NCBI GenBank assembly: GCA_946811185.2
Contig: OX328102.1
Location: forward strand, 50,197,619-50,261,618
Direction: 5' to 3'
Origin: Hippopus hippopus
Taxonomy: Eukaryota; Mollusca; Bivalvia; Cardiida; Cardiidae
Length of the DNA stretch: 64,000 bases
Each line of letters opens with the position of its first letter. Within the stretch, counting starts at the first letter, position 1. Positions 4,699 to 63,430 of this stretch are shown here, piece after piece. The notes under the pieces are model-generated. The model made no database searches, was not told the DNA's origin, and saw nothing but the letters and a program-made list of their open reading frames with translations. The translations under genes and the position numbers were made by a program.

Positions 4699-4929
4699 TT
4701 AACTCTGTAATAAACAACAAACTTTTGGACTGGACCAAATTCAAAGCATTTGCAGACAACCAAATATATGTTTATAAAATGATGATTTCTGTCTTTGACA
4801 CGATAGAAAATATTGTGGGAAAAGGAGAAAATGCTGGTTACCAGCATTTTCTCCTTTTCCCACACAATCTTTTCGAAAGTCTTCTCTTTCAGGGTCATTA
4901 AAAGCCGGGATGGTGTGGTACAGGGCTAA
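4699..4929 (-). mobile_element. hp-MITE, full length
   Basis: TTAA at 4699-4702. The core GGAGAAAATGCTGGTTACCA and its complement form a long hairpin at about 4805-4875. The right end is GGTACAGGGCTAA. It begins 98 bp after the exon B donor. Confidence 0.85.
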
Positions 4930-6362: not shown

Positions 6363-7555
6363 GTATAATTATACGCCCGTCAAAGACGGGCCATATTATG
6401 GGATCACCCATGGCGTCCGGGCGGGCGGGCGACGTCCAGTTTTTTGTCCGGAGCATAACTTTGTCATCTCCAGTCCGATTGACTTGAAACTTGGTATTTT
6501 TGTTTGTTGCAATAATACGGAGTGCAGTGCAAAAGAACCATAACTCTACCTTGTGCTGTCTTTGAGTTATTTCCCTTTGATCATCATTTTTATAGCATTT
6601 TCTGCTTGTCCGGAGCATAACTTTGTCATCTCCAGTCCGATTGACTTGAAACTTGGCATTTATGTTTGTTGCAATAATACGGAGTGCAGTGCGAAAGAAC
6701 TATAACTCTACCTTGTGCTGTCTTTGAGTTATTTCCCTTTGATCATCATTTTTACAGCATTTTCTGCTTGTCCAGAATATAACTTTGTCATCTCTAGTCT
6801 GAACATCTTCAAATTTGATATGCATGATTGTTGAAAATTTACGGAGTGCAGTGCACAAGAACCATAACTCTTCCTAGCACGAATTTTGAGTTATTCCCCC
6901 TTTGATCTTCCTTTTTATAGCATTTCTTGCTTGTCCGGAGCAAAACTTTATCATGTTAAGTAGGAATGACTTGAAATATGGTATGCTTACTTGTTGCAAT
7001 ATTTGGAAGTGCAGTGCACAAGAATTGTAACTCTACCTCGTGCTGTCTTTGAGTTATTTCCCTTTGATCATCATTTTTACAGCATTTAGTGCTTGTCCAG
7101 ATTATAACTTTGTCATCTCAAGTCAGAACGACTTCAAACATGGTATGCATGTTTGTTACAATATTACAGAGTACAGTGTGCAAGAACAATAACTCTCGGG
7201 CGGGCGGGCTGGCAGTTGTCCAGGAGGGCGGGTGGGCAGCGTCCAGTTCTTTGTCTGGAGCATAACTTTGTCCGGAATATAACTTTGTCATCTCTAGTCA
7301 GAGTGACTTCAAACGCATGTTTGTTGCAATATTACGGAGTACAGTGCGCAAGAACAACAACTCTACCTAGTGCGGATTTTGAGTAATTCCACTTTGATGT
7401 TCATTTTTACAGTATTTCTTGCTTGTCCGGAACGGAACTTAGTCACCTCGAGTCAGATTGACTTGAGACTTGGTAAACATGTTTGTTGCATTACCTGCCC
7501 TTTACGATTATTATACCCCCTCGACAACTGGCGGTGGGACAATTTGCCGCTCTTG
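6363..7555 (+). mobile_element. Helentron-like element type B
   Basis: The 5' end has a hairpin (GCCCGTCAAAGACGGGC at about 6375-6391). The middle holds about seven tandem units of roughly 161 bp, each with an AACTTTGTCATCTC motif. The 3' end is a short GC-rich stem (GCGG...CCGC) followed by CTCTTGT. This layout matches non-autonomous Helentrons (HINEs) as described in animals: 5' hairpin, internal tandem repeats, 3' stem before the terminus, no TSD. No Rep/helicase coding sequence is present. Related arrays are at 51026-52774 and 62505-63323. Confidence 0.7.
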
Positions 7556-10061: not shown

Positions 10062-10291
10062 TTAACTCTTTACCAAACAATCCCTGGTTTTAACGACCCT
10101 GGGGAAAGAAGCCCTTTGAAAACATTGTGGGAAAAGGAGAAAATGCTGGTAACCAGCATTTTCTCCTTTTCCCACAATGTTTTCTTCTCTTCCAAAATCA
10201 AGTTTCAATTTTTGAGTCACGTTTATTTTGTTGTCTGCAGATGCTTTCAATTTGGACAAGTCTAAAATTTTGTCGTATGGTAAAGAGTTAA
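10062..10291 (+). mobile_element. hp-MITE, best reference copy
   Basis: This 230-bp copy shows the whole family plan. TTAA target copies are at 10062-10065 and 10288-10291. Terminal inverted repeats follow: CTCTTTACCAAACAA on the left and a diverged TGTCGTATGGTAAAGAG on the right. A short left arm (about 45 bp) leads to a 67-bp near-perfect palindrome at about 10118-10184, whose centre is GGTAACC. The right arm of about 100 bp contains TTGTTGTCTGCAGATGCTTT. No coding capacity. TTAA plus CCCTTT/CTCTTT ends match the piggyBac superfamily; that assignment is inferred. Confidence 0.9.
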
Positions 10292-11054: not shown

Positions 11055-11362
11055 GCCCCGGTCGCTCAGTCTGTAGCGTACAGGACTTGAGAACAGGGGG
11101 GGCATGGGTTCGATCCCTCGCTCGGCCAATTTCTTTCCGAGGATTGATGATAGTCATTGTGGCAGGGTTCATTCCTCTCCCACCGCTGACCATTGTTTCG
11201 ACGATGGTTATGTGGGAAAGCACTAGTGGCTTGGAAAGAAAAATTGTGTGGAGTACTGGTCAAAGAAACTCCAGGAAAAAATTGATAGGTGCACTGCCTT
11301 CTGAGATATAACTGAAATAATGTTGAAAACAGCATTAAACACCATACAATCAATCAATCAAC
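11055..11362 (+). repeat. SINE-1 (tRNA-derived), full length
   Basis: The head is tRNA-like: A-box region GGTCGCTCAGTCTGTAGCG at about 11060 and B box GGTTCGATCCC at 11107-11117. The body contains GAGAGGAATGAACC in reverse sense and the tail is CAATCAATCAATCAACA. Internal pol III transcription is expected from the family type. Other copies are at 3225, 5370, 11870, 13065, 14322, 29815, 44461, 47737, 49240, 50240, 56318 and 56830. Confidence 0.85.
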
Positions 11363-14321: not shown

Positions 14322-14583
14322 CAAGATTGATATTTCAGTTATATTGTGGCTGTCCATTGCTTTCCTGGAGTCTATTTTATCAGTACTCCGCACAATTTTC
14401 TTCCAAGCCACTGGTTGCTTTCCCATATTACCATCTTCAAGACAACGGTCAGTGGTGGGAGAGGAATGAATTCTGTCGCAATGACTATCATCAATCCTCT
14501 GCTAGAAATTGGCCAAGCCAGGGATCGAACCCACGACCCCCTGTTCTCAAGTCCAGCACGTTACCGAATGAGCTACTGGGGCT
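14322..14583 (-). repeat. SINE-1, reverse
   Basis: The B-box complement GGGATCGAACCCA is at 14521-14533 and the head ends GAGCTACTGGGGCTC near 14583. The oligo tail side is at 14322. Confidence 0.8.
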
Positions 14584-18530: not shown

Positions 18531-19792
18531 CCGTTTACCACACAATCTTGACTTTTAATGACCTTGAGAAAGAAGCCTATTGCAAACATTGCGAGAAAAG
18601 GAGAAAATGCTGGTAAACAGCATTTTCTCCTTTTTCCCACTATGTTTTCTACCTCTCCAAAAACAAATTTCAATTTTTCAGTCAGTTTTTAGCTCACCTG
18701 AGCACAAAGTGCTCATGTTGAGCTTTTGTGATCGTGCTGTGTGCGGCGTTCGTCCTGTGTCGTGCATTGTCCGTCGTCAACTTTTACCTTGTGTACGCTC
18801 TAGAGGCCACATTTTCAGTCCGATACTCATGAAACTTGGTCAGAATGTTTGTATTGATGATATCTCAGATGAGTTAAAAAATGGGTCATGTCGAGTCAAA
18901 AACTAGGTCACTAGGTAAAATCTTAGAAAAACCTTGTGTACACTCTAGAGGACACATTTTCAGTCCAAAACTCTTGAAAGTAGGTCAGAATGTTTGTCTT
19001 GATGATATCTCGGACGAGTTTGAAAATGGGTCATGTCAGGTCAAAAACTAGGTTACTAGGGCAAATCTTAGAAAAACCATGTGTTTGCTCTAGAGGCCAT
19101 ATTTTCAGTCCAAAACTCTTGAAAATGGGTAAGAATGTTTGTCTTGATGACATCTCAGACGAGTTAAAAAATGGGTCATGTCAGGTCAAAAACTAGGTCA
19201 CTAGGTCAAATCTTAGAAAAACCTTGTGTATGCTCTAGAGGCCATATTTTCTGTCCAAAACTCTTGAAAGTTGGTCAGAATGTTTGTCTTGATAATATCT
19301 CAGATAAGTTTGAAAATGGGTTATGTCAGGTCAAAAACTAGGTCACAAGGTCGAATCTTAGAAAAACCTTGTGTACACTCTAGAGGTCACATTTTTAGTC
19401 CAATACTCTTGAAAATGGGTTAGAATGTTTGGCTTGATGATATCTCAGACGAGTTTGAAAATGGATCATGCTGGGTCAAAAACTAGGTCACTTGGCCAAA
19501 TCTTCGAAAAACCTTGTGTTTGCTCTAGAGGCCACATTTATAGTCCAATACTCTTGAAAATTGGTCAGAATGTTTGTCTTGATGATATCTTGGACATGTC
19601 GGGTTGAAAACTAGGTCACAAGGTCAAACTTAGAAAAACCTTGTGTACACTTTTGAAAGAGATTTAAAATGGATCATGATTGGTCAAAAGGCTCAGGTGA
19701 GCGACTTCAGGGCCATCATGGCCCTCTTGTATTTTGTTGTCTGCAAATACTTTCAATTTAGACCAGTCTTTTGTTGTTTGGTAAAGTGTTAG
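18527..19792 (+). mobile_element. hp-MITE split by a Helentron-like element
   Basis: The left piece ends TTTTTCAGTCAGTTT at 18688 and the right piece resumes TATTTTGTTGTCTGC at 19730. Joined, they match the intact right arm found in other copies. Confidence 0.85.
18689..19729 (+). mobile_element. Helentron-like element type A, copy 1
   Basis: The 5' hairpin is AGCTCACCTGAGCACAAAGT, then GCTCATGTTGAGCT. About six tandem units of roughly 144 bp follow, each with a GTTTGTCTTGATGATATCTC motif. The 3' stem GGGCCATCATGGCCC precedes TCTTG|T. Insertion between T and T in an hp-MITE, without duplication. No coding capacity; the open frames are tandem-repeat artefacts. Confidence 0.75.
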
Positions 19793-26487: not shown

Positions 26488-26558
26488 CTTTACTACACAG
26501 TTCCAAAATTTCAACTTCTTTGACAAAAAAGGCTTTTGAAAACATGGTGAGAAAATGC

Positions 26559-26766
26559 TGTTACAGGAGATCACTCCTTCATGCATGGCTTCATCCCGAT
26601 TTAAAATACAACACCTGACAGCTGCGTTATGGAGAATTCTCTTTAGCTCAGTGGTTATGGTGTTGGCCTTTCATCTGGGCGTTCTAGGTTCGAATCCTGT
26701 CCGGTCCCCGTATTTCTGCCATGCATTTGTTCATTTGTTTCTTTGTTACAGACTTTGTTAGTAAGA
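26559..26766 (+). repeat. 5' LTR of the miniature element
   Basis: It begins TGTTACAGGAGATCACTCC and ends TTGTTAGTAAGA. TGTTAC...GTAAGA is an imperfect terminal inverted repeat. It carries the tRNA-like block at 26638-26710. Confidence 0.8.
26638..26710 (+). promoter_or_regulatory. tRNA-like pol III promoter inside the 5' LTR
   Basis: The A box TAGCTCAGTGG (26643-26653) and the B box GGTTCGAATCC (26689-26699) both match the tRNA consensus. The spacing is like that of a tRNA gene. The region after the B box (TGTCCGGTCCCC) does not pair with the sequence before the A box, so a true acceptor stem is missing and this is tRNA-derived rather than an intact tRNA. Confidence 0.6.
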
Positions 26767-26784
26767 TGGGGGCTTGTCTGGGAT
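26767..26784 (+). promoter_or_regulatory. Primer binding site (tRNA-Pro type)
   Basis: TGGGGGCTTGTCTGGGAT abuts the 5' LTR. It differs at two positions from the well-known tRNA-Pro primer site of gammaretroviruses, a site defined by complementarity to the conserved 3' end of host tRNA-Pro. Confidence 0.7.
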
Positions 26785-26871
26785 TGGCCATTGAGCCATT
26801 AATCCCGTTTGTTTTCCAAAAATGGACTTTCTGCCTAATAAGGCTTTGAGTCATTAATAAATGATGACTTT

Positions 26872-26883
26872 AAGAGGGGGGTG
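26872..26883 (+). promoter_or_regulatory. Polypurine tract
   Basis: AAGAGGGGGGTG directly before the 3' LTR, in the position where plus-strand priming occurs. Confidence 0.65.
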
Positions 26884-27091
26884 TGTTACGGGAGACCACT
26901 CCTTCATGCATGGCTTCATCCCGATTTAAAACACAACACCTGACAGCTACGTTAGGGAGAATTCTCTTTAGCTCAGTGTTTATGGTGTTGGCCTTTCGTC
27001 CGGGCGTTCTAGGTTCGAATCATGCCCGGTCCCTGTATTTCTGTCATGCATTTGTTCATTTATTTCTTTGTTACGGACTTTGTTCGTAAGA
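26884..27091 (+). repeat. 3' LTR of the miniature element
   Basis: TGTTACGGGAGACCACTCC to TTGTTCGTAAGA, the same length as the 5' LTR. Its A box is changed at one base (AGCTCAGTGT); the B-box region is GGTTCGAATCA. Confidence 0.8.
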
Positions 27092-27239
27092 ATGTTGATG
27101 ACCAGCATTTTCTCCTTTTCCCACAATGTTTTCTAACCTTTCAAAGACAGTTTCCAACATTTTAGACACACTTTATTTGTCATCTGCATTATACTTTGAA
27201 TTTGAAAGTGTAAAATTTTGTAGTATGGTAAAACCTTAA

Positions 27240-37950: not shown

Positions 37951-38583
37951 GATATATCTATCTGTGATGAAAGATTTGTGTCAGATAATGAGCCAAAAGA
38001 TAGTCTTGATGGTTTTCTGGAGCAGTTAAGCCAACATATGAAGAAGACACGCCTGATACGTGTGCAGTCATTTTCACCAAGTGAGGATGACATTGAATGG
38101 AGGGGGAACCAAAGATCCAACAGTTTCACAGGGTTTGGTTCCCAGAAACAGTCTGTTGGAAACACCCCAAATACTTTAAAACGACAGCACAGTTTTTCTG
38201 GTGCAGTGCCGAGACAAAACAGTTTTAATGGAGTCCTATCACGTCAGAACAGTTTTGTACGTTCACTTCCAGGTTCACGACAGGGTAGTTATTGTAGATC
38301 CAGATCAAGAGGAAGTACAGGAAGTTCAAATACCTATTCCACATATTCAACAACAAGTTCAGGAATTAGCTCAGGTCAGCATTCAGAACTTTCGGATAGC
38401 TCAGCAAGTTACTCGTCTAAAAGTGCACTCTCTCGTGAGTTTTCTTATGGACTACTAAATGAATTTGAGGACATCGAGGAGCTAGATGAGGAGACTAAAA
38501 CAGCGCGAGAGACGGCCAGAGACACAGCCAGGAAAAGTGGACAAGAAAACAACCCCCAGTCCACTAATGACTGTCTGAGACCA
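37951..38583 (+). CDS. Host gene exon E (211 codons, Ser-rich)
   Basis: The acceptor is TATTTTTACAG and the donor CCA|GTAAGT is consensus. The exon begins DISICDERFVSDNEPKDSLD and has a helical piece at residues 19-38. Residues 78-107 hold three tandem 10-residue units starting RQHSF, RQNSF, RQNSF, with a related RSNSF earlier. These fit the R-x-x-S pattern of basophilic kinases and 14-3-3 partners. Residues 107-155 are a Gly/Ser/Tyr low-complexity tract. An acidic patch (NEFEDIEELDEE) and a TARE/TARD/TARK repeat near the end follow. Largely disordered; likely a scaffold or regulatory region. Family not recognised. Frame continues beyond the donor only by chance. Confidence 0.85.
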
Positions 38584-43182: not shown

Positions 43183-44422
43183 TTAACCATTTACCAAACT
43201 CTCTGAATTTTTACAACCCTTCGGAGGAAGCTTTTTGGAAACATTGGGGGAAAAGGTAACCAGCATTTTGTCCTTTTCCCACAATGTTTTCTACCCTGTC
43301 AAAGAGTTTTTGTTCAATTGCACCACTTTCATTTGTCATGTACAGATGCTCTCAGTTTGCAAGGCTCTAAAATTTGTTGTTTTTAGCTCATCTGAGCACA
43401 ACGTGCTCAAGGTGAGCTGTTGTGATCGCCTTATGTCCAGCGTCCGGCGTCTGTCAACAATTTCTGTAAACGTCTTCTCCTATACCACTAGGCCAATCTT
43501 GATGAAACTTGGCAGGGATGTTCCTTAGGTGAAGCTCTACCAAAGTTGTTCAAAGAATTGAATTCCACCCTTAACTCTGGTTGCCATGGAAACAAAAAGG
43601 AAAAAAATGCAAAATCTTTGAAAATCTTCTCCTCTGAAACTAGAAGGCGTAGAGCTTTGATATTTGGTATGTAGCATCTCCTGGTGGACCTCTATCAAGT
43701 TTGTTCATATGATGCCCCTGGGGTCAAAACTGGCCCAGCCCTTGGGGTCACAAGTTCGAACATAGGAACAAAGAAGGAAAACTTTAAAATTCTTCTTCTC
43801 TGAAACTGAAAGGCATAGAGCTTTGATATTTGGGATACCTTTAGGGCACTCTAGAGGCCACATTTATTGTTCAATTGATTTGAAAGTTGGTTAAAATGTT
43901 TCTCTTGATGAAATATAAGATAAGTTCAAAATTGGGTCACCTGGGGTTATAATCTAGGTCACTAGGTCAAATTAAAGAAATACCTTTAGGGCACTCTAGA
44001 GGCCACATTTCTTGCTCAGTTGACTTGAAAATTGGTCAGAATGTTTGTCTTGATGAAATATTGGATGAGTTTGAAATTGGGTCACCTGGCATCATAAACT
44101 AGGTCACTTGGTCAAATTAAAGAAATACCTTTACGGCACTCTAGAGGCCACATTTATTTCTCATTTAACTTGAAAACTGTTCAGAATGTTTGTCTGGATA
44201 AATATTTTGATGAGTTCTAAATTGGGTCACGTATGGTGATAAAGTAGGTCACTAGGTCAACTTATGGAAATTTCTTGTGGATGCTCTAGATGCCACATTT
44301 TAAGCTCAATTGACATGACAATTGGTCAGAAATTGAATTTTGCACGTGGAGTGAAATTTTGCCTATTGACTCAGGTGAGCAATCCAGGGCCATCATGGCC
44401 CTCTTGTTTTATAAAGGGTTAA
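43183..44422 (+). mobile_element. hp-MITE split by Helentron-like type A copy 2
   Basis: The left part runs from TTAACCATTTACCAAACTCT to AATTTGTTGTTTT and the right part is TTTTATAAAGGGTTAA. The left hairpin arm is shortened (GGGGGAAAAGGTAACC). Confidence 0.8.
43383..44406 (+). mobile_element. Helentron-like element type A, copy 2
   Basis: 5' hairpin AGCTCATCTGAGCACAACGT. Two kinds of unit follow: first TTCTCCTCTGAAACTAGAAG, then four units with GGTCAGAATGTTTGTCTTGA. The 3' end is CAGGGCCATCATGGCCCTCT TG|T. Its first third resembles type C, so the body looks mosaic. Confidence 0.7.
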
Positions 44423-50505: not shown

Positions 50506-51025
50506 GTGACCTTTATTTTTGGTAACTAACAGGTAACACTGGCATATCACTGGCACACAACTAGTATGACTAGGTGGTGCCGGCATTCATTGGGACATCA
50601 ATGGGGTCAATGTGGGTGACACCTGCTTTTACTAAGGTATAAACTGGGCAAGCTACTGCTATGCAACGTAAACACTGTATAGTAAATAGGGAGTTAGCTC
50701 GGCCACTCTTGGGGTCAAATTTAAAGCTCCTTCTTCAAGACTGGGTGTACACCTGGGTAATGTCGGTGATGTGAGAATGCAAGTACAAAATTTTGTTGAA
50801 AGTTGTAGGTATATATACATTTGTAACAAAGAATATTTTGTAGTAATTTTCTTTGTGCTTGTAGTTACTTTTTGCTCCATAAGAAAATTTTGGTATCTTG
50901 CTCAACCTTTGTTCTTGCGCAGTATCAAATTTTCTCACGCTGCTCAAATCAAATACGAGTACCTGAAAAGATATTAAAGCGATTTTAAGTTATGCAGTTA
51001 AGTGAATTTTTGTTGTTTTCAAGCT
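50506..51025. other. No recognised feature
   Basis: Unmatched sequence between SINE-1 and the type B tandem array. Confidence 0.3.
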
Positions 51026-52774
51026 TCATTTTTACAGCATTTTCTGCTTGTCCGGAACATAACTTTGTCATCTCCAGTCTGATTGACTTGAAACTTGGCA
51101 TTTGTGTTTGTTGCAATAATACTGTGTGCAGTACAAAAGAACCATAACTCTGCCTCGTGCTGTCTTTGAGTTATTTCCTTTGATCGTCATTTTTACAGCA
51201 TTTTCTGCGTGTCCGGAAAATAACTTTGTCATCTCAAGTCCGATTGACTTGAAACTTGGCATTTGTGTTTGTTGCAATAATACGGAGTGCAGTGCAAAAG
51301 AACCATAACTCTACCTCATGCTGTCTGAGTTATTTCCCTTTGATTGTCATTTTTACAGCATTTTCTGCTTGTCCAGAGCATAACTTTGTCATCTCCTGTC
51401 TGATTGACTTGAAACTTGTCATTTGTGTTTGTTGCAATAATATGGAGTGCATTGCGAAAGAACCATAACTCTACCTTGTGCTGTCTTTGAGTTATTTCTC
51501 TTTGATCGTCATTTTTACAGCATTTTCTGCTTGTCTGGAATATAACTTTGTCATCTCAAGTCTGAACATCTTCAAATTTGGTATGCATGATTGTTGAAAA
51601 AATACGGAATGCTGTGCACAAGAACCATAACTCTTCCTAGCAGAATTTTGAGTAATTCCCCCTTAGATCTTCATTTTTATAGCATTTCTTGCTTGTCCAG
51701 AGCATAACTTTGTCATCTTAAGTAGGAATGATTTGAAATATGGTATGCTTATTTGTTGCAATATTTGGAAGTGCAGTGCACAAGAATTGTAACTCTACCT
51801 CGTGCTGTCTTTTGAGTTATTTCCCTTTGATCGTCATTTTTACAGCATTTAGTGCTTGTCCGGAATATAACTTTGTCATCTCAGATCAAAACAACTTCAA
51901 ACTTGGTATGCTTGTTTGTTGCAATATTACGGAGTACAGTGCACAAGAACAATAACTCTACCTGGCGCGGATTTTGAGTAATTCCACTTTGATCTTCATT
52001 TTTACAGTCCAGTTCTTTGTCCAGAGCTTAACTTTGTCATCTCCAGTCCGATTGACTTGAAACTTGGCATTTGTGTTTGTTGCAATAACATGGTGTGCAG
52101 TGCGAAAGAACCATAACTCTACCTTGTGCTATCTTTGAGTTATTTCCCTTTGATTGTCATTTTTACAGCATTTTCTGCTTGTCCGGAATACAACTTTGTC
52201 GTCTTTAGTCTGAACATCTTCAAATTTGGTATGCATGATTGTTGAAAAATTACGGAGTGCAGTGCACAAGAACCATAACTCTTCCTAGCACGAATTTTGA
52301 GTTATTCCCCCTTAGATCTTCATTTTTATAGCATTTCTTGCTTGTCCGGAGCATAACTTTGTCATCTTCAGTAGGTTTGATTTGAAATATGGTATGCTTA
52401 TTTGTTGCAATATTTGGAAGTGCAGTGCGCAAGAATTGTAACTCTACTTTGTGCTGTCTTTGAGTTATTTCCCTTTGATCGTCATTTTCACAGCATTTAG
52501 TGCTTGTCCGGAATATAACTTTGTCATCTCAAGTCAGAATGACTTCAGACTTGGTATGCATGTTTGTTGCAATATTACGGAGTACAGTGGGCAAGAACAA
52601 TAACTCTACCTAGCGCAGATTTTGAGTAATTCCACTTTGGTCTTCATTTTTACAGTATTTCTTGCTTGTCCAGAACGGAACTTTGTCACCTCAAGTCAAA
52701 TTGACTTGAGACTTGGTAAACATGTTTGTTGCAGTTATGAAAAGTGCAGTGCACTGGAGCCGTAACCTTACCTA
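51026..52774 (+). repeat. Type B tandem array, 11 units with higher-order order
   Basis: About 11 units spaced near 161 bp, each with a variant of CATAACTTTGTCATCTC. The variable part identifies unit kinds: 1 (GATTGACTTGAAACTTGGC), 2 (GAACATCTTCAAATTTGG), 3 (GGAATGATTTGAAATATGG), 4 (CAACTTCAAACTTGG), 5 (TTGACTTGAGACTTGGTAAA). The order is 1-1-1-2-3-4-1-2-3-4-5. No 5' hairpin or CTCTTG terminus is present, so the ends are lost. Open frames here are artefacts of the repeats. Confidence 0.75.
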
Positions 52775-57316: not shown

Positions 57317-57540
57317 AATAACCCTTTTCCAAACAGTCTTGTATTATTTTGACTCATGAGAAGATGGCTTTAGAAAACATTGTGAAAAAAGGAGAAAATG
57401 CTGGTAACCAGCATTTTCTCCTTTTTCTACCATGTTGTCTACCGTTTCAAAGACAAATCCCATTTGAGAGACAGTTATCTTATTATCTGCAAATGCTTTC
57501 AGTAAGGGAATAGTTTAAAATCTTGATGTCTAGTAAAGAA
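57317..57540 (+). mobile_element. hp-MITE
   Basis: AATAACCCTTTTCCAAACAG; the palindrome at about 57374-57433 is near perfect; the right end is decayed. Confidence 0.8.
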
Positions 57541-62283: not shown

Positions 62284-63430
62284 CTAGCTCACCTGAGCAC
62301 GAAGTGCTCAGGATTAGCTATTGTGTTCACTCGGCGTCCGTCGTCCGTCCGTTCACATTTTTTTGTTTACATTCTAGCATCTACAATTTTTAACCAATCA
62401 GCACTAAACTTGGTCAAAATATATATGACCATATGATCTCGGATGAGTTTGATTATGGGTCTAATCAGACCAGAACGACTGGAGTTATTTGCCCTTGAAT
62501 TAGAAAGTTCTTTAGAATAGTTCTTTGTCCGGAGCATAACTTTGTCATCTCCAGTCCGATTGACTTGAAACTTGGCATTTGTGTTTGTTGCAATAATACG
62601 GAGTGCACTGTGAAAGAACCATAACTCTACCTTGTACTGTCTATGAGTTATTTCCCTTTGATCGTCGTTTTTACAGCATTTTCTGCTTGTCTGGAATATA
62701 ACTTTGTCATCTCTAGCCTGAACATCTTCAAATTTGGTATGCATGATTGTTGAAAAATTATGGAGTGCAGTGCACAAGAACCATAACTCTTCCTAGCACG
62801 AATTTTGAGTTATTCCCCCTTTGACCTTCATTTTTATAGCATTTCTTGCTTGTCCGGAGCAAAACTTTGTCATCTTAAGTAGGAATGACTTGAAATATGG
62901 TATGCTTATTTGTTGCAATATTTGGAAGTGCAGTGCACAAGAATTGTAACTCTACCTCATGCTGTCTTTGAGTTGTTTCCCTTTGATCGTCATTTTTACA
63001 GCATTTAGTGCTTGTCCGGAATATAACTTTGTCATCTCAAGTCAGAACGACTTCAAACTTGGTATGCATGTTTGTTGCAATATTACGGAGTACAGTGCGC
63101 AAGAACAATAACTCTATCTAGTGTGGATTTTGAGTAATTCCACTTTGATCATCATTTTTACAGTATTTCTTGCTTGTCTGGAATGGAACTTTGAAGTCTC
63201 AAGTTAAATTGACTTGAGACTTGGTAATCATGTTTGTTGCATTACCTGCCCTTTGCGATTATTATACCTCCTCGACAACTGGCGGTGGGACGGGCATATC
63301 TTGCAACAATTTGCCGCTCTTGTGTCATTATCATTTGGCCTTGAACCTCGATATTTGGTATTTATCTTCATTGTAGACTTTTACTGCTTAGTACTCAGGT
63401 GAGTGATATAGGACCATCATGGTCCTCTTG
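62284..63430 (+). mobile_element. Helentron-like type A copy 3, with nested type B
   Basis: The outer element begins AGCTCACCTGAGCACGAAGT and ends GGACCATCATGGTCC then TCTTG|T. The loop-side change on one arm is matched on the other (GGACC/GGTCC instead of GGGCC/GGCCC), so the stem pairing is maintained. Type B units occupy its centre. Confidence 0.7.
62505..63323 (+). repeat. Type B array nested in a type A element
   Basis: Five units in order 1-2-3-4-5, then GACAACTGGCGGTGGGACGG and the terminus CCGCTCTTG|T. The 5' hairpin of type B is absent. The 3' end here is more complete than in the 6363 copy, which lacks GGGCATATCTTGCAA. Confidence 0.7.

Follow-up and report, generated by a model that had tools for sequence, protein, structure and literature searches.

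The stretch of DNA analysed here, referred to as the window, comprises 64,000 nucleotides of the Hippopus hippopus genome (assembly GCA_946811185.2, contig OX328102.1, positions 50,197,619 to 50,261,618, forward strand). It contains a 533-bp element (window positions 26559–27091) with the anatomy of a complete miniature long terminal repeat (LTR) retrotransposon, the LTRs of which carry the boxes of a tRNA-type promoter for RNA polymerase III (pol III). The original prediction, made from the sequence of the window, described two 208-bp direct repeats, a 117-bp inside, a primer site for tRNA-Pro and a polypurine tract, all of which were borne out (Table 1). Between the two LTRs, each 208 nt long and 93% identical, there are 15 differences, of which 11 are transitions, and the Kimura two-parameter (K2P) divergence is 0.077. 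The primer-binding site (PBS) departs from the 18-nt proline sequence (PBS-Pro) at two positions, both C>T changes at CpG, and its match is unique in the 64 kb at up to three mismatches (0.01 expected, 100 shuffles). The PBS-Pro 18-mer is contained in a probe named MLV-PBS, a proline tRNA primer site (PMC4587795). Two short LTRs, a short non-coding inside, a total length below 1000 bp, and a PBS and polypurine tract at the inner LTR borders make the element a terminal-repeat retrotransposon in miniature (TRIM).

The element belongs to a family in the window's own 1.07-Gb assembly (34 contigs). At least 42 genome matches were found including the window copy, of which 40 cover the full or nearly full query at 92–100% identity. 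The element-query search scored 40 of 2,696 first-look candidates, the copies examined being the best-scoring ones and not a random sample. Besides the window copy, 38 of the 39 near-full matches were examined (L026, of which one LTR alone passed the filter, was dropped). Two LTRs of 203–208 bp flanking an inside of 114–118 bp are present in 37 of these 38. A genome check for further full copies, proposed along with the original prediction, returned 37 two-LTR copies, among them copies with PBS and polypurine tract. PBS-Pro is exact in 21 of the 37, the 5′ LTR begins with TG in 36, and 72 of the 74 LTRs end with GA. Exact 4-bp duplications surround 28 of the 37 copies, and among the other nine is one with a 5-bp match in a shifted register. 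The LTR–LTR divergence (K2P) within copies ranges from 0.015 to 0.072, with a median of 0.040. Viral and prokaryotic contigs contained no match to the exact patterns for which they were scanned, and comparison of the element with 121 proteins gave only short, weak matches among the 20 listed (at most 29 residues, best E 0.004). Two loci, L053 and L067, show an overlapping register of miniature matches (LTR-inside-LTR-inside-LTR), like the arrays reported for Cassandra and biv-TRIM. At two places about 98 kb apart (G000 C8, 47855103–47856361 and 47953290–47954548), a full element is accompanied by an LTR match at equal distance, which suggests a segmental duplication.

The element lies within a palindromic miniature inverted-repeat transposable element (MITE), copies of which elsewhere in the window served as empty sites. 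The flanks were joined minus one copy of the duplication and aligned to these MITE copies. A 4-bp duplication gave the best result, with 38 junction-spanning matches and 3313 bits in total, in which the palindrome may count in both orientations; lengths of 5 bp (3039 bits, 37 matches) and 3 bp (3016 bits, 35 matches) scored lower. The duplication is thus taken to be 4 bp long because removal of 4 bp gives the best total score over the joined flanks. Three of its four bases match (ATGC/ATGT). Of the 4–5 bp originally proposed, the shorter length was retained and the longer one abandoned. The MITE centre pattern has 36 matches counted over both strands of the window, which amount to roughly half that number of places; 100 shuffles gave no match. 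The centre, GAGAAAATGCTGG...CCAGCATTTTCTC, recurs throughout the window (e.g. at 4825–4851, 10137–10163 and 57392–57418) with tens of matches in the 64 kb, and a MITE-derived frame matches 2,762 predicted proteins.

Table 1 Features of the miniature element and its target site, in window positions.
Feature	Positions	Strand	Remarks
Left arm of target palindromic MITE (extent approximate)	26528..26558	.	
Target duplication, left copy ATGC	26555..26558	+	empty-site comparison
5′ LTR (TGTTAC...GTAAGA)	26559..26766	+	direct repeat, 93% to 3′ LTR; like ends in 37 genomic copies
TATA-like TTTAAAA	26600..26606	+	31–37 nt upstream of putative RNA start near 26637; putative role
Box A, 5′ LTR (TAGCTCAGTGG)	26644..26654	+	
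Box B, 5′ LTR (GGTTCGAATCC)	26687..26697	+	
Internal part, 117 bp, without long open frame	26767..26883	+	114–118 bp in 37 copies
PBS for tRNA-Pro, TGGGGGCTTGTCTGGGAT	26767..26784	+	16/18 identical to PBS-Pro; directly after 5′ LTR
TTTT, sole run of at least 4 T in window element	26812..26815	+	no run at equivalent place in 37 other copies
Polypurine tract AAGAGGGGGGTG	26872..26883	+	end of inside; AAGAGGGGGTG in 27/37 copies
3′ LTR	26884..27091	+	direct repeat
Box A, 3′ LTR	26969..26979	+	one substitution
Box B, 3′ LTR	27012..27022	+	one substitution
Target duplication, right copy ATGT	27092..27095	+	empty-site comparison
Right arm of target palindromic MITE (extent approximate)	27096..27232	.	

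Each LTR contains the adjacent A and B boxes that had been predicted. In the 5′ LTR the two box starts are 43 nt apart, the spacing of a tRNA gene, and the pair so spaced occurs a single time in the 64 kb at no more than one mismatch (0.01 expected). The boxes do not form part of a recognizable whole tRNA. ARAGORN detected no tRNA in the window, the 37 copies or 21 related loci, Rfam detected none in the window copy or in 10 genomic copies scanned, and the folding stability of the tRNA-like part is no better than that of shuffled sequences. Of the tRNA resemblance put forward originally, the promoter boxes therefore stand and the whole tRNA does not; the term tRNA-like applies in the window copy to the boxes alone, which are what remains of a tRNA. 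Another tRNA-derived unit, resembling a short interspersed element (SINE) and possessing boxes A and B, is located at 14510–14582 on the minus strand (Rfam tRNA 11.6 bits, under the cut-off of 29), and a similar sequence with a B box is found at 11107 on the plus strand.

Runs of at least four T act as stops for pol III, and such runs are scarce in the family. They are absent altogether from 28 of the 37 copies, and their density is 0.66 per kb within the elements compared with 12.6 per kb in the 120-bp flanks. Runs of AAAA occur near expectation, 1.19 observed per copy against 1.25 expected. Whole elements contain a mean of 0.35 T runs, where shuffles predict 6.6 (dinucleotide-preserving) or 5.1 (composition), with the LTR counted twice in these figures. 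When one LTR plus the inside is considered, the mean is 0.19 runs versus 3.75 in dinucleotide shuffles, with a median P of 0.004 and a largest P of 0.050 over the 37 copies.

A genome scan for PBS-Pro with a base other than T directly after it yielded 80 sites, the reversed pattern yielded none, and 30 of the sites were fetched. Twenty-one of the 30 belong to the miniature family. Alignment of 12 of these 21 loci defined a sister group of ten, subfamily 2, with LTRs of ~ 216–229 bp and a box spacing of 62–63 nt compared with 43–44 nt in the 37 copies. Upstream of box B, the two groups are 93% identical in U3, 80% at 26631–26643, 95% in box A and 85% at 26655–26670. The identity then falls to 32% at 26671–26686, rises to 96% in box B, falls again to 61% at 26698–26712 and is 84% in U5. 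Box B is a conserved island between replaced stretches, and box A is situated within generally conserved sequence. The Rfam tRNA model matched over its full length in two of the nine subfamily-2 loci scanned, with a best score of 24.8 bits (E 0.36), under the cut-off of 29. When one matching stretch was run again, tmRNA, a member of that clan, was listed in place of tRNA.

At E 1e-5, the remaining nine fetched loci nowhere match the miniature element over more than 60 bp, and they fall into two families, X and Y, grouped by the sequence around the primer site. The four family X loci have LTRs of ~ 1190–1235 bp that start with TGTCAG. In family Y the LTR end is CGTAACA in all five loci; for two of these (L062 and L063), alignment with the remaining three begins no earlier than 12 bp ahead of the primer site. 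The Y LTR starts with TGTTATG in two loci, giving lengths of 590 and 574 bp, and a third locus has TGTTGTG at about the same place. Four open frames were compared with Pfam. A SCAN domain and a zinc knuckle (CCHC) scored above the cut-offs in one X frame, which is cut by the locus end, and in one Y frame; a second Y frame has a knuckle above the cut-off and a third has no relevant match. The LTRs of X (four) and Y (two) hold 9–13 T runs each versus 9.0–12.0 in dinucleotide shuffles. The LTR ends of family Y and the miniature element are alike (TGTTATG...CGTAACA and TGTTACG...CGTAAGA, respectively), and this likeness makes Y, known from its gag side alone, a candidate partner of the miniature element. 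The GA termini of the miniature LTRs take the place of the usual CA, with which the LTRs of the possible partner Y end.

The best explanation, to which a probability of roughly three in four is assigned, is that the element is a Helenus-type non-autonomous LTR retrotransposon, a TRIM that would be transcribed by pol III and would rely on the enzymes of a Gypsy-type element. Both the anatomy and the reading put forward in the original prediction, that of a miniature LTR element whose LTRs hold a promoter of pol III type, are upheld. Its further suggestion, pol III transcription combined with LTR-type reverse transcription, is supported by the sequence, with pol III use the presumptive part. According to the proposed mechanism, pol III would start near 26637 by means of boxes A and B of the 5′ LTR and would continue through what remains of this LTR, then the inside, then the 3′ LTR and on into host DNA. 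The first T run met in the flanking host sequence would terminate the RNA. A TTTT located downstream of the promoter would end the RNA in the 5′ LTR because both LTRs share that sequence, and it is proposed that the family therefore keeps few T runs. tRNA-Pro would prime complementary DNA at 26767, and the copy would take in U5 together with the portion of the LTR that is transcribed. The strong-stop DNA would then transfer to the corresponding portion of the 3′ LTR, U3 and both LTRs would be rebuilt, and the host flank would never be copied. Reverse transcriptase and integrase would come from a Gypsy-type element that shares this primer site, which would give the 4-bp duplications. That the family is a terminator-poor pol III LTR retrotransposon, selected against pol III stops and borrowing its stop from host DNA at the insertion site, is a proposal on which we consider the odds to be even. 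If it is true, the scarcity of T runs would provide a simple genome-wide test for LTR elements that use pol III.

Both the scarcity of TTTT and the retention of box B favour pol III transcription, and neither proves it. A number of results weigh against this interpretation. The scarcity weakens under composition shuffles, in which 2.80 runs are predicted for a single LTR and the inside taken together; P then has a median of 0.045 and reaches at most 0.212 among the 37 copies. For the window copy P is 0.013 with dinucleotide and 0.10 with composition shuffles, and for its single LTRs 0.004–0.013 and 0.05–0.08, respectively. TTTT is also absent from 5 of 811 overlapping 208-bp window stretches with as many T runs away from the element, and the test was conceived after inspection of the sequence. 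Since the 37 copies are mutually related, the scarcity counts as one signal of moderate strength. In subfamily 2, all ten LTRs contain TTTT at a place like that of an anticodon loop, in nine as CTTTTAA and in one as CTTTTGA; CTTTTAA is the loop sequence of tRNA-Lys(UUU), the gene for which is read through by pol III. No individual subfamily-2 LTR shows a significant shortage of TTTT (P 0.07–0.24), and the claim of avoidance therefore depends on the window's subfamily. With respect to the boxes, the 85% identity at 26655–26670 indicates that the sequence between them was only partly replaced between the subfamilies. Among the 37 copies the boxes show no more conservation than other parts of the LTR; of 154 sliding controls, 64 were as low. 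Finally, TTTAAAA, which is found in both window LTRs and could serve pol III or RNA polymerase II (pol II), would together with the internal AATAAA at 26856 fit pol II too.

An alternative is that pol II transcribes the TRIM from the TATA-like sequence, and that a SINE once inserted into an ancestral LTR left the tRNA-like region behind as an inert relic. The position of TTTAAAA relative to the putative start, the AATAAA inside, the lack of extra box conservation among the 37 copies and the marginal TTTT scarcity under composition shuffles all agree with such an origin. However, a relic is not expected to hold box B at 96% between sides at 32% and 61% across subfamilies, and pol II use leaves fewer T runs alongside normal A runs without explanation, so that this alternative is regarded as rather unlikely. 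Derivation of the element from one autonomous LTR element by decay and internal deletion, in place of a self-propagating miniature family, gains some credence from the existence of gag-frame elements with the same primer site. It is rendered very improbable by the constant 114–118 bp inside in all 37 two-LTR copies, 28 of which have their own exact duplication, by the different LTR lengths of the gag-bearing families (574–590 bp in two loci and ~ 1190–1235 bp), and by the finding that none of the nine gag-family loci matches the miniature element over more than 60 bp at E 1e-5, with 30 of the 80 primer sites fetched. A tandemly duplicated tRNA-derived SINE, which the original prediction had named as a possible refutation, would account for the promoter boxes and the short length. 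Nonetheless, PBS and polypurine tract adjoin the inner LTR borders in copy after copy, and the exact 4-bp duplications of 28 of the 37 copies enclose the LTR pair and not a single unit. The tandem SINE was accordingly rejected and is assigned almost no probability.

Elsewhere in the window, an exon at 38038–38514 (plus strand) is 53% identical to a kyphoscoliosis peptidase-like protein of Ruditapes philippinarum, the single protein recovered in a word-limited search with concatenated exons; used as query in turn, this protein recovered itself alone. By this match the host is likely a heterodont clam. Tandem arrays with a 162-bp unit are located at 6444–7196, 51024–52754 and 62525–63241, and arrays with a 145-bp unit at 18786–19590 and 43835–44331.

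TRIMs with tRNA-like sequence in their LTRs were named Helenus by Kojima in 2024 and occur in fungi, animals and a plant (PMC10886601). The design, which the original prediction took to be little described in animals, had therefore already been published. Helenus elements have 4-bp duplications in animals, tRNA-Pro is among the primers in bivalves, Gypsy partners are proposed, most are non-functional as tRNA, and pol III use is expected and not validated (PMC10886601). The present family shares with them the boxes (TRGCY...YGG and GGTTC in Helenus), PBS, polypurine tract, 4-bp duplications and tRNA-Pro primer (PMC10886601). It is assigned to Helenus by anatomy and the published description. 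The bivalve hosts listed there all belong to Pteriomorphia (PMC10886601), beyond which the range would extend if the present host is a heterodont clam. The main text of Kojima 2024 does not contain 'TTTT', its two words beginning with 'terminat' both concern Cassandra, and neither the scarcity of TTTT nor the box B island was encountered in it (PMC10886601); no later Helenus paper was found in the literature searched. The two separate sequence signatures point to the pol III use that was left unvalidated there (PMC10886601), and both are applicable to the published Helenus families.

TRIMs are also the subject of a paper on ants (PMC3532108). The bivalve biv-TRIM, found in heterodonts including Ruditapes, has LTRs of similar size (202–218 bp) but differs in its inside of 77–80 bp and in having no clear PBS (PMC6934838). 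Identity with biv-TRIM was rejected, since its two primer sequences and the inner motif TGATCCCAAAGGAC are not in the element (best 9/20, 9/20 and 6/14 mismatches). The element resembles tRNA-derived SINEs in its internal tRNA boxes, short length and lack of coding sequence, and is unlike them in its LTRs, PBS, polypurine tract and 4-bp duplications. Cassandra of plants is another TRIM whose LTRs hold a pol III promoter. However, the Cassandra promoter is that of 5S rRNA and its LTRs are described as containing conserved terminators (PMC10886601, PMC7215508), whereas in the present family the promoter is of tRNA type and potential terminators are few. If the proposed borrowing of terminators is true, it would represent a different answer from that of Cassandra to the problem of ending the transcript, in which strand-transfer reverse transcription would operate on a read-through RNA.
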